Position numbers and translations under genes: made by a program. Positions 40,470 to 44,999 of a stretch of 64,000 bases of DNA are shown here, one piece after another (position 1 is the first letter of the stretch; every line of letters begins with the position of its first letter). A model generated the notes under the pieces. The model was given only the letters and a program-made list of their open reading frames with translations, did not search any database and had not been told where the DNA came from. Source of the DNA: Isosphaeraceae bacterium EP7 (GTDB taxonomy: Bacteria > Planctomycetota > Planctomycetia > Isosphaerales > Isosphaeraceae). The stretch is taken from NCBI GenBank assembly GCA_038400315.1, contig CP151667.1, forward strand, positions 3,297,174 to 3,361,173. The letters are read 5' to 3'.

Positions 40470-41726
40470 TCAGCGGGACGCGGTGGCGTTCTCGGAGAGC
40501 AGGGCTTCGATCGTCTTGGTGAACGACTCGCGTGCCTGGGTGTGGAACTCGCCGCTGGCCGGGCTGGCGAAGCCGGAGTGGACCTTCTTGACCTTGCCGT
40601 CGCGGCCGACGAAGAAGGTGGTCGGCCACGAGTTCAGGTTGTCGGCCTGCGGCACCTTCACCCACATCTCGATCGGTGCGCCGGCGACGAGGTAGGTGTA
40701 GTTCACGCCGTACTGCTTGACGAACGCCTTGAGCCGCTTGTAGCCGGACTCCTGCTCCTCGATCTCTTCGAAGTCGAGGGCCACGATCTCGAGGCCTCGG
40801 TCGTGATACTTGCGGTCCAGCTCGACGAGGAACTGGGCCTCGTCGTGGCAATTGGGGCACCAGGTGCCCGTCACGACGGCGACGACAACCTTCCCCTTGA
40901 ACTTCTCATCGGTGCTGGAGAAGGTCTTGCCGTTGACGTCGGGGAAGCTGAAGTTGAACGGCTGGTCGGCGTCCTTGATGGTCGTGTGCTTGGCGAAGTC
41001 GGCCGGCTCGGGCAGGCCCTTCTGGCGGGCCACTTCCGGGCGGTAGGCGGTCAACTTCTTGGCGATGCCGGGGCGGCCGAACTGGACCAGGGAGAGGTTG
41101 CCGTCCTTGTCGGGGGTCACCTCCAAGCGCAATGCGCGGGAGCCCGAGAAGTGGGCCAGGACGAACTTGCCGTCCTTGTAGGTCCCGCGAAGGGTGCCGG
41201 TGTCGCCGTCGACCCGGAGGATCGAGCCGCGGACGTCGGCGCCGTCCTGCTTGACGATGAACCGCCACGACTTCTCGCCCTTGGGGCTCTCGACGGGGAT
41301 CTCCCAGAGGCCGTCGATGGAGGGGACGTCCTTGACGGCGACCTTGGTGTCGGAGTGGCGCTCGGCGTGGAACGGCTGCTCGCCGCCGGGGCCTTCGCCG
41401 CCGCGTGAGCTGGCGAACTCGCCCTTGATCTTGCCGTCCTTGACGGTCCCTTGGAGCTTGCCGAGGTAGTGGTCGAAGTTCAGGACGAACTTGCCGTCCT
41501 TGTAGGAGCCGCCCGTGGATTTGACCTTCACGTCGCCGTTGAGGAACGAGCCGGAGAAGGTGTCCCCCTCGCCCGCGAACTCGATGAGGAACGGCAGCTC
41601 GATCTTGTTGTAGGTGATCACGGCGTCCCAGCGGCCGTCGATCGACTCGGCCAGCACCGAGGCGGAGGCGCCGGGGGCGACGACCGCCACGGCGGCGGCG
41701 AGGGCGATGTTTCTGTAGCTCTGCAT
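40470..41726 (-). CDS. exported TlpA-type thioredoxin-fold protein
   Basis: A 418-residue protein. After a signal peptide (R-N-I-A-L-A-A-A-V-A-V-V-A-P-G-A-S-A) comes a beta-rich region with two similar halves (G-S-F-L-N-G-D-V-K-V-K ... Y-K-D-G-K-F-V-L-N-F and T-L-R-G-T-Y-K-D-G-K-F-V-L-A-H-F). The C-terminal domain is thioredoxin-like with the redox motif T-W-C-P-N-C at about 288-292 and the cis-Pro region W-P-T-T-F-F-V-G. It probably acts as a periplasmic thiol-disulfide reductant. A mono-haem protein is encoded 104 bases upstream in the same direction, consistent with a redox or cytochrome-maturation link. Confidence 0.88.
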   Translation of the reverse strand: MQSYRNIALAAAVAVVAPGASASVLAESIDGRWDAVITYNKIELPFLIEFAGEGDTFSGSFLNGDVKVKSTGGSYKDGKFVLNFDHYLGKLQGTVKDGKIKGEFASSRGGEGPGGEQPFHAERHSDTKVAVKDVPSIDGLWEIPVESPKGEKSWRFIVKQDGADVRGSILRVDGDTGTLRGTYKDGKFVLAHFSGSRALRLEVTPDKDGNLSLVQFGRPGIAKKLTAYRPEVARQKGLPEPADFAKHTTIKDADQPFNFSFPDVNGKTFSSTDEKFKGKVVVAVVTGTWCPNCHDEAQFLVELDRKYHDRGLEIVALDFEEIEEQESGYKRLKAFVKQYGVNYTYLVAGAPIEMWVKVPQADNLNSWPTTFFVGRDGKVKKVHSGFASPASGEFHTQARESFTKTIEALLSENATASR

Positions 41727-41830: not shown

Positions 41831-43273
41831 TCAGGGGGAGGACGCCTCGGCGAGGCCCGCGGGGCGGGCGAGTTTCCAGTCGCCGGGCAAGCCGAGCTTG
41901 GTGGCCCGGAGGATCTCGAGCACCGAGGCGCGGTCCTCGTCGGAGATCCGGGCGAAGTCCGGCCCGCGTTCGCGGCCGGTGAGCACCTCCAGGAGTCGGC
42001 CGTAGACGTAGCCCTTGGCCGGCTCGGGGATCGCGTCGAACGCCTCGGAATAGATCAGGTAGCTGCACGGATATTTGAACATTCGTCGCGTCAGGTCGAA
42101 GTCGCGCAGCGACCGCCCCGCTGGGTCGCGCGGGCCGATCGCCGCGAAGTCCGCGGCGAAGGAGGTGGTGCCGGCCACGGGCTCCTCCAGCGGTGCCTCG
42201 TTGGCGAAGAGGATGTAGCGGACCAGCTCCTCGGCCGGCTCCTTGAACGCGGCGAGGACGTCCTCGGCACGCTCGGCCTCGGTCCTGGCCGGCGCGGCCT
42301 GGGGCGCCTCGACGCCCGCTTTCGGGGCCGGGGCGGGCTTGGGATGCTGGGCCAGGCGGGTCTTGTAGTTGACCAGCGTGATCAGGTTATGCATCTGCGT
42401 CTGGTGGGCCAGGACCAGCTGGGCGACGATGTCGCTGTGGCCGGTGGCGTATTCGCCCGAGGGGAACCTGGTCGAGAGGTCGACGACGTTGGACCCGTCG
42501 GCCCAGATCGCCGCCTCCTTGGCGTCGATTTTGCCCCGCCCGCCCGGGACGAACGCGTTGCCCCGGTGCGCCTGCTTGCCGTGCGTCCCGGTGACGTACC
42601 AGCCTCCGAACCGCTCCGAAAGCGGGGTCTCGTGGCCCGTCACCGTCGACCTGCTGCGCGCGGCCTGGGTGCCCGTCGCGGTGGTGGGCACCGACCTGAG
42701 GAAGACCCCGGGAATACCCCTGGTCTCGCGGGCGACGTGGCACTGGGTGCAGTCGATCGACGCCCTGAGCAGCGTCGGCGAGTCCGACCGGACCTGATCG
42801 AGCTGGTAGAAGATCGCCCCCTGCTTGGGGTCGAACGACGCGATCTCCAGCAGGTCACCGCCGCGCACCCAGCCGACGTAGACGTTGTCGTTGTAATACA
42901 ACGCCCTGGGCGTCTTGGGCGAGATCTTCTTGTATTGCAGGCTCGTCTTGGAGAAGACCAGCGTCTGGGACGACACGGGGATCTCTAGCAGTTTCAGGAC
43001 CGAATCCAAGTAGCCATGCTTCGGCTCGAAGTCGAGCGCGACCTCCCCCTTGTCGAGCCGATCCTGGAGCCTGGCCACCGGGTCGTCCACCGGCGAATCC
43101 AGGTAATTGATGGGCTCTTCGCTGTAAGGCACGAAGGCCCGGGCGGGGGCCGTCTGCGCGGTCGCATGGCCCGCACCGAAGGCCGTCGGCGCGATCGCAC
43201 AGAGTCCCATCATGAGGAGGCGGCCGAGGGGCGTCGGGCGCCGGGGCGACCGGTGGTGTTGGTGATCGGGCAT
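41831..43273 (-). CDS. exported mono-haem cytochrome-like protein
   Basis: A 480-residue protein with a long basic N-terminus, a hydrophobic signal (L-L-M-M-G-L-C-A-I-A-P-T-A-F-G) and a single haem c site D-C-T-Q-C-H at about 176-181. Further His residues (H-S-D, H-Q-T-Q-M-H) may supply the distal ligand. The rest is not recognised; the pattern is common among planctomycete secreted proteins that carry one CxxCH. ATG at 43273 is preferred to 43300 because GAAGGA is close upstream. It may be reduced by, or matured with, the neighbouring thioredoxin-fold protein. Confidence 0.75.
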   Translation of the reverse strand: MPDHQHHRSPRRPTPLGRLLMMGLCAIAPTAFGAGHATAQTAPARAFVPYSEEPINYLDSPVDDPVARLQDRLDKGEVALDFEPKHGYLDSVLKLLEIPVSSQTLVFSKTSLQYKKISPKTPRALYYNDNVYVGWVRGGDLLEIASFDPKQGAIFYQLDQVRSDSPTLLRASIDCTQCHVARETRGIPGVFLRSVPTTATGTQAARSRSTVTGHETPLSERFGGWYVTGTHGKQAHRGNAFVPGGRGKIDAKEAAIWADGSNVVDLSTRFPSGEYATGHSDIVAQLVLAHQTQMHNLITLVNYKTRLAQHPKPAPAPKAGVEAPQAAPARTEAERAEDVLAAFKEPAEELVRYILFANEAPLEEPVAGTTSFAADFAAIGPRDPAGRSLRDFDLTRRMFKYPCSYLIYSEAFDAIPEPAKGYVYGRLLEVLTGRERGPDFARISDEDRASVLEILRATKLGLPGDWKLARPAGLAEASSP

Positions 43274-43332
43274 CGTCCTTCGGCTCCTTGGACCGTCCAT
43301 GCCGGGGCCATCCTTGGACAGCTCGGCTCAAT

Positions 43333-43515
43333 GTCGACCAAATCTATCGACTAAATAATATCGAGTCAACAGGCTCGCCGGAAATTCGATCGAGTTTCGA
43401 TATGTTGGTCCCGGACCGAGGAGAAAATCGCCGTTTTCTCAGGGAAAATCGCCGTATTGAAAATTCCTCCAGGACTTCTTGACGTTCTTTCACTATGTCG
43501 ATAGATTTGGTGGAC
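43333..43515. repeat. 183-bp palindrome-rich element with 19-bp inverted ends
   Basis: AT-rich intergenic element bounded by inverted repeats 43333-43351 and 43497-43515 (18 of 19 bases match; core CCAAATCTATCGAC). Inside are an 18-base palindrome with one mismatched pair (43381-43398), a perfect hairpin GAGAAAA/TTTTCTC (43421-43440), and a 12-base direct repeat GAAAATCGCCGT (43423-43434 and 43444-43455). No open frame or target duplication is seen. It sits between divergent genes, so a regulatory region and a MITE-like element are both possible. Confidence 0.7.
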
Positions 43516-43655
43516 TTTCCAGGCGTGGTCGCCTCGGGACAGCATGTCTCGATGAATGTGCCCTCGTGACATTTCCCTCGCCTATTCCCGAGCGACGCGA
43601 CGCCCCCCGGGCTTCGGGGCGGGCCGCCTCCTCGGTCGATCGCCGGAGAGAATCC

Positions 43656-43898
43656 ATGCTGGTCTGCACGTCTCGCCCGCGGCTCCGCCTGGTCGCGGCC
43701 CTATCCCTGGCGGCCCTCGTCGCGTTTCCCGGTTGCGGCGGCGAGGAGACCAACGGCGGCGCGGTGCCGGCGAAGCCCGTCGACGAGTCGGCCGAGGTGC
43801 GGCCGCCGGACATCCCCGCCGGGATCGCCACCCGCCAGGTGCGAGGCAAGGTCAACCGACGGGTCGCCTCCCGCCCGGCCAGTCCCCTCCGCCCTTGA
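43656..43898 (+). CDS. small lipoprotein
   Basis: An 80-residue predicted lipoprotein: signal peptide L-R-L-V-A-A-L-S-L-A-A-L-V-A with lipobox F-P-G-C near residue 26, then an acidic stretch (E-E-T-N-G-G, V-D-E-S-A-E-V) and a basic Arg/Pro-rich end. GGAGAG 6 bases before the ATG supports the start. It is followed after 63 bases by a DUF1559 gene, the third such pair in the window. Family not recognised. Confidence 0.78.
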   Translation: MLVCTSRPRLRLVAALSLAALVAFPGCGGEETNGGAVPAKPVDESAEVRPPDIPAGIATRQVRGKVNRRVASRPASPLRP

Positions 43899-43961
43899 TG
43901 TTTTTGTATGTCGATTTTCAACTTCGTTCAGAGTCCATCTCTCTCTCCCAGAGGTCCCGTC

Positions 43962-44999
43962 ATGAGCCAGTCGAGTCGTCGCAGGTCGGGGTTCACTCTC
44001 ATCGAACTCCTGGTCGTCATCTCGATCATCGCCGTCCTGATCGCGCTGCTCCTGCCGGCCGTGCAGAGCGCCCGCGAGGCCGCCAGGCGGTCGCAGTGCG
44101 TCAACAACCTCAAGCAGATCGCCCTGGCGAATCACAACTATGTGAGCGTCAACGAAGTGTTCCCGATGGGCGGCTATTACAACGACTACTCGACGTCGGC
44201 CAACAAGTGGGACAAGGGCTGCCTGGTCGGCCTCTCGCAGTACCTGGAGCAGGGCAACGTCTTCAACGCCTTCAACCAGAGCCTGCGGTACAACCACGAG
44301 TCGAACACGACGGTGCTGGCCAGCCAGATCGCCACTCTGCACTGCCCCAGCGACCCCGAGAGCTCCAACAGGCCGCTCCTCTCCGGCACGCTCGACGTGG
44401 CCCGGACGAACTACCTGGCCAATGCCGGCCCGTGGAACAGCCCACCCCTGGGCCTGGTGCCCAGCGACCCCAACTACGCTGCGATGAAGGCCAATGCGTT
44501 GGGCCTGATCTACCTGTACAGCAACACCACGCTGGCCAGCATCACCGACGGCACGAGCAACACGCTGCTCTTCGGCGAGGCCGTCTACGGCCGGCTGGCC
44601 GCCACCGACAAGTCGGGCTGCCGCTGGTGGATGGCCGGCAACTACGGCGACACCATCATGAACACCATGTATCCGCCCAATCCCGGCAACAAAAATAGCG
44701 ACATTGATATCTACAACAACCGCGCCTCGGCCTTCGACATCTACCGCGTCGCGGCGTCGAGCAACCACCCGGGCGGCGTCAATGCCGCGCTCGCGGACGG
44801 CTCGGTCCGGTTCATCAAGAATACGATCGACTCGTGGCCCCTGGACCCCGGGAACAGCTACGCCCCGATCAGCGTGCTCTACAACGTCATCTCGCCGCCG
44901 TTCGGCACCTTCTCGGTGAAGCCGGGGGCCAAGCTCGGCGTGTATCAGGCCCTCTCCACCCGCGCCGGCGGCGAAGTCCTCAGCTCGGACGCCTATTGA
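43962..44999 (+). CDS. DUF1559 prepilin-like protein
   Basis: A 345-residue DUF1559 protein. Leader M-S-Q-S-S-R-R-R-S then G-F-T-L-I-E-L-L-V-V-I-S-I, T-D-G-T-S-N-T-L-L-F-G-E, H-P-G-G-V-N-A-A-L-A-D-G-S-V-R-F-I and the ending G-G-E-V-L-S-S-D-A-Y. AGAGGT lies 7 bases before the ATG at 43962, which is better than the upstream ATG at 43908. It matches the gene at 9725 closely in architecture. A strong hairpin follows. Confidence 0.93.
   Translation: MSQSSRRRSGFTLIELLVVISIIAVLIALLLPAVQSAREAARRSQCVNNLKQIALANHNYVSVNEVFPMGGYYNDYSTSANKWDKGCLVGLSQYLEQGNVFNAFNQSLRYNHESNTTVLASQIATLHCPSDPESSNRPLLSGTLDVARTNYLANAGPWNSPPLGLVPSDPNYAAMKANALGLIYLYSNTTLASITDGTSNTLLFGEAVYGRLAATDKSGCRWWMAGNYGDTIMNTMYPPNPGNKNSDIDIYNNRASAFDIYRVAASSNHPGGVNAALADGSVRFIKNTIDSWPLDPGNSYAPISVLYNVISPPFGTFSVKPGAKLGVYQALSTRAGGEVLSSDAY

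Follow-up and report, generated by a model that had tools for sequence, protein, structure and literature searches.

Probable divergent promoter region with operator-like inverted arms between cytochrome-like and lipoprotein-like genes of a planctomycete

Locus architecture

The window, which is the whole 64-kb stretch of Isosphaeraceae bacterium EP7 DNA analysed here, contains at positions 43333-43515 a 183-bp element flanked by genes on opposite strands (Table 1). The preliminary description had placed it between divergent redox and lipoprotein genes. The divergence stands and the genes can be named more closely: the minus side carries a cytochrome-like gene and, behind it, a redoxin-domain gene, and the plus side a small lipoprotein-like ORF followed by a DUF1559 pilin-like gene. 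The cytochrome-like protein has no match in Pfam or NCBIfam, and the small lipoprotein-like ORF has no family match above cut-off. The redoxin query used for family and neighbourhood searches was translated from 41855, upstream of the likely start.

The ends of the element form inverted-repeat arms, GTCGACCAAATCTATCGAC on the left and GTCGATAGATTTGGTGGAC on the right, which match at 18 of 19 bases as the preliminary description had stated; extension yields a 22 nt inverted repeat of 91% identity. When the 383-bp intergenic region was resampled 400 times under a first-order Markov model, no non-overlapping 19-mer inverted repeat matched at more than 16 of 19 bases, and 4 of the 400 resamplings reached that value. 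The inverted ends are real and exceed chance. The inner dyad is broken in the right arm. The two inner palindromes and the 12-base direct repeat described earlier are likewise present, and the direct repeat occurs nowhere else in the window. The element is also AT-rich and unlike its surroundings, as had been claimed: its GC content is 45.4%, where the window as a whole has 67.1%, and an equally low value is found in only 2 of 6382 stretches of 183 bp taken across the window in 10-bp steps.

Table 1. Positions of genes, promoter-like sequences and repeats in and around the element (window coordinates)
Feature	Position	Strand	Basis
Redoxin-domain gene (AhpC-TSA / Redoxin), downstream of the cytochrome-like gene	40470..41726	-	start at MQSYRN chosen by eye
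Cytochrome-like gene, presumed target of the minus promoter	41831..43273	-	CXXCH by eye; start 43273 chosen for ribosome-binding-site-like AAGGA
Left arm, operator-like site GTCGATAGATTTGGTCGAC (read on minus), overlapping the -10 of the minus promoter	43333..43351	-	repeat search, matrix ranks
Promoter-like TTGACT-N17-TAGATT, towards cytochrome-like and redoxin-domain genes	43341..43369	-	consensus scan
Inner imperfect palindrome GAAATTCGATCGAGTTTC, overlapping	43381..43398	.	repeat search
Inner palindrome GAGAAAATCGCCGTTTTCTC	43421..43440	.	by eye
Direct repeat GAAAATCGCCGT, copy 1	43423..43434	+	repeat search
Direct repeat GAAAATCGCCGT, copy 2	43444..43455	+	repeat search
Promoter-like TTGACG-N17-TAGATT, towards lipoprotein-like and DUF1559 genes	43479..43507	+	consensus scan
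Right arm, operator-like site GTCGATAGATTTGGTGGAC, overlapping the -10 of the plus promoter	43497..43515	+	repeat search, matrix ranks
Small lipoprotein-like ORF (80 aa), presumed target of the plus promoter	43656..43898	+	lipobox by eye
DUF1559 / prepilin-type (pilin-like) protein gene	43938..44999	+	family match; start chosen by eye

Predicted outward promoters at the arms

A sigma-70 consensus scan of positions 43200-43960 (761 bp) returned two sites only, one per arm, compared with a mean of 0.2 (sd 0.4) in shuffled sequence. Both promoter-like sequences point outward and fit the consensus at 9 of 12 positions. Because both -10 hexamers sit inside the arms, the mirrored ends can be read as outward -10 regions with their flanking bases: each arm consists of the -10 region with GTCGA before it and TGGTNGAC after it, and the middle of the element is the stretch between the two -35 elements. 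In the window's own genome, TTGAC-N15-CGATAGATT has exactly two exact matches, both at the arms of the element; one further place matches with one mismatch and 18 with two. The arm core by itself likewise has two exact copies in that genome, both in the element.

Single copy or mobile element

An element with mirrored ends invites comparison with miniature transposons, and the preliminary description had raised a MITE-like origin. The likeness to a MITE lies in terminal inverted repeats, AT-richness and a length below 200 bp; the differences are the missing second copy, the missing 5-8 bp target duplication and the promoter elements at the ends. A search of the 7.2-Mb genome for other copies, as had been proposed, gave one match only. 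With a 401-bp query, no element-length match was found in 58 other genomes, seven of which gave matches of 21-55 bases. Nine of these 11 short matches lie beyond the element, in GC-rich sequence (query 330-390); the other two are in genomes G005 and G011. The G005 match (query 170-201) falls in coding sequence that reads as HtrA-like. No flanking duplication of 5-8 bp was detected for ends placed at 43327-43339 and 43510-43522, that is, within about 6 bp. The 45 family genomes searched include no second genome of the window's genus.

Conservation at homologous loci

Homologues of the cytochrome-like protein occur in 36 of the 45 family genomes and at 41 loci in named genomes, mostly of acidobacteria. 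At two loci from two other genera (G028 and G033:C135), the cytochrome-like gene again diverges from a DUF1559 gene across an AT-rich gap. A MAFFT alignment of these two with the window lines up outward TTGAC...TAG blocks on either side of the gap. The gap is otherwise hardly conserved among the three, and the inner repeats are not conserved. The preliminary description had held that a region present once and preserved at this promoter in distant relatives would speak for regulation over mobility: the layout and the promoter blocks are indeed kept in two other genera, and the full 183-bp sequence and its inner repeats are not.

The pattern TTGACN{12,15}GTCGATAGAY occurs at three places in the 45 family genomes, namely both arms and the G028 promoter of the homologous gene (58% identity). 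Over 397 genomes it occurs at 19 places (16 outside the family) compared with 20 for the reversed pattern, which is not above control. The operator pair is not conserved as a pair: GTCGATAGAY stands on one side only in G028, and by eye CTATAGG stands on the other side in both G028 and G033:C135. Among the loci compared, the window alone has two identical sites.

The partner genes vary in position. In the window the redoxin gene follows the cytochrome-like gene, and in G033:C135 it follows the DUF1559 gene; no redoxin gene was found in G028 within the 7 kb taken. In G033:C90, the cytochrome-like, redoxin and DUF1559 genes all lie on one strand and are not divergent. A redoxin homologue is near the cytochrome-like gene in all eight named loci checked (L145, L149, L151, L156, L160, L164, L175 and L179, out of the 41 found). 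A small lipoprotein-like ORF is visible by eye in G028 and G033:C135; with the window ORF as a phmmer query, no relative was returned from the three planctomycete and the eight named loci. Such reshuffling of redoxin, DUF1559 and cytochrome-like genes is as expected of one regulon.

Other site types appear at related promoters. A palindromic GGATATC/GATATCC-like site (GGATATCC-like) was seen by eye just before another Rrf2 gene of the window's genome (L143), and similar sites lie by eye over cytochrome-like homologue promoters at L043, L044, L046, L047, L049 and L050; these might belong to a second Rrf2 regulon. Seven further cytochrome-like homologues adjoin an Rrf2 gene (L058, L059 and L061-L065); their promoters have in common a block like ATATGGATTCTAAATACAACTTAAAAG, which we take to resemble NsrR sites. 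From such comparisons, the operator of the cytochrome-like gene seems to have changed repeatedly.

Candidate regulator of the arms

An Rrf2-family protein is proposed because 24 of 25 left-end bases recur before an Rrf2 operon in G011 and similar sites precede other Rrf2 genes. The G011 sequence repeats 24 of the 25 bases of 43325-43349 (E 6.7e-4 per genome, 59 genomes searched). It has TCGACT at 17 bp as a -35 and lies 440 bp upstream of the Rrf2 gene, with a small ORF also downstream. A check for recurrence of the ends in other promoters had been proposed: recurrence is seen at the homologous G028 promoter (one side) and at the G011 Rrf2 operon promoter, and the exact TTGAC-N15-CGATAGATT sequence is found nowhere else in the window's genome.

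The best candidate in the window's genome is a CymR-like protein, G000:C1:6841722-6842129. It exceeds the PF02082 gathering score (96.5 bits against 30). Its best model is the Rrf2 superfamily (102.3 bits, cut-off 73.3) and its second-best is CymR (NF047409), at 84.4 bits far under the cut-off of 195. From its translation, the protein has a single Cys. A second CymR-like Rrf2 gene (G000:C1:5603330-5603746; L142, also L093) follows a cysH-like gene, presumably encoding a PAPS reductase-like protein.

Two known Rrf2 systems offer a comparison. RisR of Myxococcus xanthus is reported to be an Fe-S protein of the Rrf2 family that acts at the isc and suf promoters, controls Fe-S cluster genes and binds T(t/g)GAC-N7-GTCC(t/a); its site is an imperfect palindrome, GAC-N7-GTC, flanked by AT-rich sequence and close to predicted -10/-35 elements (PMC9973013). 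The corresponding bases of the left arm are GAC-N7-ATC. The systems differ in that RisR is an Fe-S protein acting on Fe-S cluster genes, whereas the candidate has a single Cys and other presumed targets. CymR, the cysteine regulator, is described as an Rrf2-family protein without a cluster (PMC9338935). It is the closest match to the candidate after the superfamily model; the low score against its own model sets the two apart, and both operator and presumed regulon differ.

Weight matrices give a graded picture. A cytochrome-promoter matrix built from seven sites, the window included, was scanned upstream of 30 Rrf2 genes and over 148 control stretches. The best scores upstream of Rrf2 genes were 24.9 (G011), 20.8 (G029), 19.3 (G007), 17.7 (G031) and 16.8 (the window's genome); the best control reached 14.5. 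The own-genome score is above those of 25 of the 30 Rrf2 loci, yet two of the 25 outscore the controls as well (15.2 each), in positions that look unrelated. The site at the regulator's own operon is strong in G011, fair in G029, G031 and G007, and a weak match in the window's genome.

A second matrix was made from 13 Rrf2-operon sites with neither the window nor G011; the sites were partly picked by resemblance, and they include G029b, which precedes a small ORF on a contig with no Rrf2 gene listed. In the window it ranks the left arm first and the right arm second, a partly circular result. Ranks from both the seven-site and the 13-site matrices are to be read in this way, since a window-based matrix or visual inspection guided the choice of sites. 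Of the 70 homologue upstream regions, four score above the highest control value, 15.2 over 216 stretches: L156 (23.7) and L179 (22.2), both acidobacterial, the window (18.5) and G033:C135 (15.4). Related promoters in G028 and G033:C90 reach only 6.9 and 6.5. Tests with less circularity gave weaker results. With column-permuted versions of the 13-site matrix, an arm came first in 3 of 300 and within the top two in 6 of 300. A matrix of eight Rrf2-operon sites from two other genera placed the right arm 14th and the left arm 17th of 127,958; its core ranks the arms 33rd and 106th.

A de novo motif search used 16 upstream regions of genes for Met/Cys-rich proteins, 12 of them facing an Rrf2 gene, with the window and G011 left out, and 2500 of 3296 seeds run. 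One of the six motifs ranks the left arm first and the right arm fourth in the window; the two strongest motifs did not find the arms. Taken together, the assignment of the arms to an Rrf2 protein, with the CymR-like protein as best candidate, is a tentative one, somewhat below an even chance. It is held there because the G028 and G033:C90 promoters fail the 13-site matrix and the L156 Rrf2 protein comes from another subgroup.

A possible wider regulon

In the window's genome, the candidate Rrf2 gene is divergent from a gene for a Met/Cys-rich protein. Relatives of this protein occur in 16 of the 45 family genomes, and in 13 of 18 loci viewed by coordinates (L096:361-843 and 17 others) an Rrf2 gene faces the Met/Cys-rich gene. 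The strongest de novo motif upstream of these genes is a conserved ATCATGACC...GATCAG block. The Met/Cys-rich proteins have no Pfam match below E 0.15; a likeness to copper storage proteins was considered and is not supported by Pfam.

Two loci bring the gene sets close together. In G033:C135, a gene for a Met/Cys-rich protein sits at a distance of 3-4 kb from the divergent region; a redoxin, a PF05995 protein resembling cysteine dioxygenase and an FAD-NAD(P)-binding protein are encoded alongside. In the acidobacterial locus L156, two ORFs separate the cytochrome-like gene from an Rrf2 gene that ends some 1.4 kb ahead of it; a Met/Cys-rich ORF diverges from this Rrf2 gene, and the cytochrome-like promoter region has a high-scoring site on the opposite strand. 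The L156 Rrf2 protein is closer to another Rrf2 protein of the window's genome (L139, 6.7e-26) than to the candidate (1.9e-15), and it has more cysteines. The acidobacterial arrangement may represent parallel wiring by a different Rrf2 subgroup.

These neighbourhoods raise the idea, itself rather doubtful, that a cluster-less, CymR-like planctomycete Rrf2 protein might run an undescribed thiol/metal-stress regulon made up of its own operon, the divergent Met/Cys-rich protein and, via the twin operators, the cytochrome-like/redoxin/lipoprotein-like/DUF1559 unit. A limited literature search (Rrf2 with copper storage protein; Planctomycet Rrf2 regulon), judged short of full texts, found no description of such a planctomycete Rrf2 regulon.

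Alternative explanations and integrated view

Positions 43333-43515 very probably form a divergent promoter/operator region, whoever the regulator is. The divergent reading follows from the promoter-like sequences at both arms, the single copy, the missing 5-8 bp duplication and the same layout in two other genera. The promoter layout is well supported; that the arms are operators and that control is by repression we infer. Each outward unit would carry a 19-bp putative operator, GTCGATAGATTTGGTNGAC, that covers the -10 hexamer. One repressor bound at both sites could block RNA polymerase on both sides, and the cytochrome-like/redoxin and lipoprotein-like/DUF1559 genes would be kept under one control. 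The preliminary description had offered a compound operator between divergent genes as its second option, and the outward promoters at both arms bear this out in the form of a divergent promoter region. Such divergent regulation is of an ordinary kind.

The rival readings differ widely in weight. As a sub-case of the divergent promoter region, twin operators bound by a regulator other than a CymR-like Rrf2 protein come very close to an even chance: the matrix controls are mixed, the Rrf2 site in the window's own genome is weak, and cytochrome-like homologues show, by eye, at least two other operator types, although the near-identity with the Rrf2 operon promoter region of G011 points the other way. 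A BlaI/CopY operator was considered within this group and then dropped, the idea being prompted by TAGACAAT-like strings seen by eye in acidobacterial promoters; by eye, none of 11 upstream regions of PF03965 genes in the window's genome matches, and own BlaI proteins as queries found no BlaI-like gene in 74 homologue loci. It is improbable that the two promoters are alike simply through consensus or through duplication of one promoter, with no specific regulator acting on them. The -10 hexamer does supply 6 of the 18 matched bases and both promoters fit the consensus at 9 of 12 positions, but identity runs through the bases on either side of the -10, and the 3' half recurs in G011.

An inserted MITE-like or other transposon remnant whose 19-bp terminal inverted repeats supply both promoters is very unlikely. 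Short length, AT-richness, imperfect terminal repeats and inner palindromes suit such an origin, and miniature elements can carry outward promoters; the region may, with low probability, be an ancient, domesticated insertion. Against an insertion stand the single copy with an arm core confined to the element, the lack of element-length matches in 58 other genomes, the absence of a 5-8 bp flanking duplication and the recurrence in two other genera of divergent promoter blocks beside these genes. The inner palindromes could suggest a riboswitch leader or other structured RNA, yet positions 43200-43960 gave no Rfam match up to E = 1 and the middle of the element lies between the predicted starts, not downstream of them; the chance of this is slight in the extreme. 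The 183-base element is most likely a switch region and not mobile DNA.

Reading the element as a divergent promoter region removes what is likely a false transposon call, and it illustrates that twin sites overlapping -10 hexamers can pass for a mobile element. If the proposed role of Rrf2 is true, a CymR-like Rrf2 protein of planctomycetes would gain a candidate operator together with a set of candidate targets, and there would be an entry point to a pair of cytochrome-like and redoxin genes that has no name.
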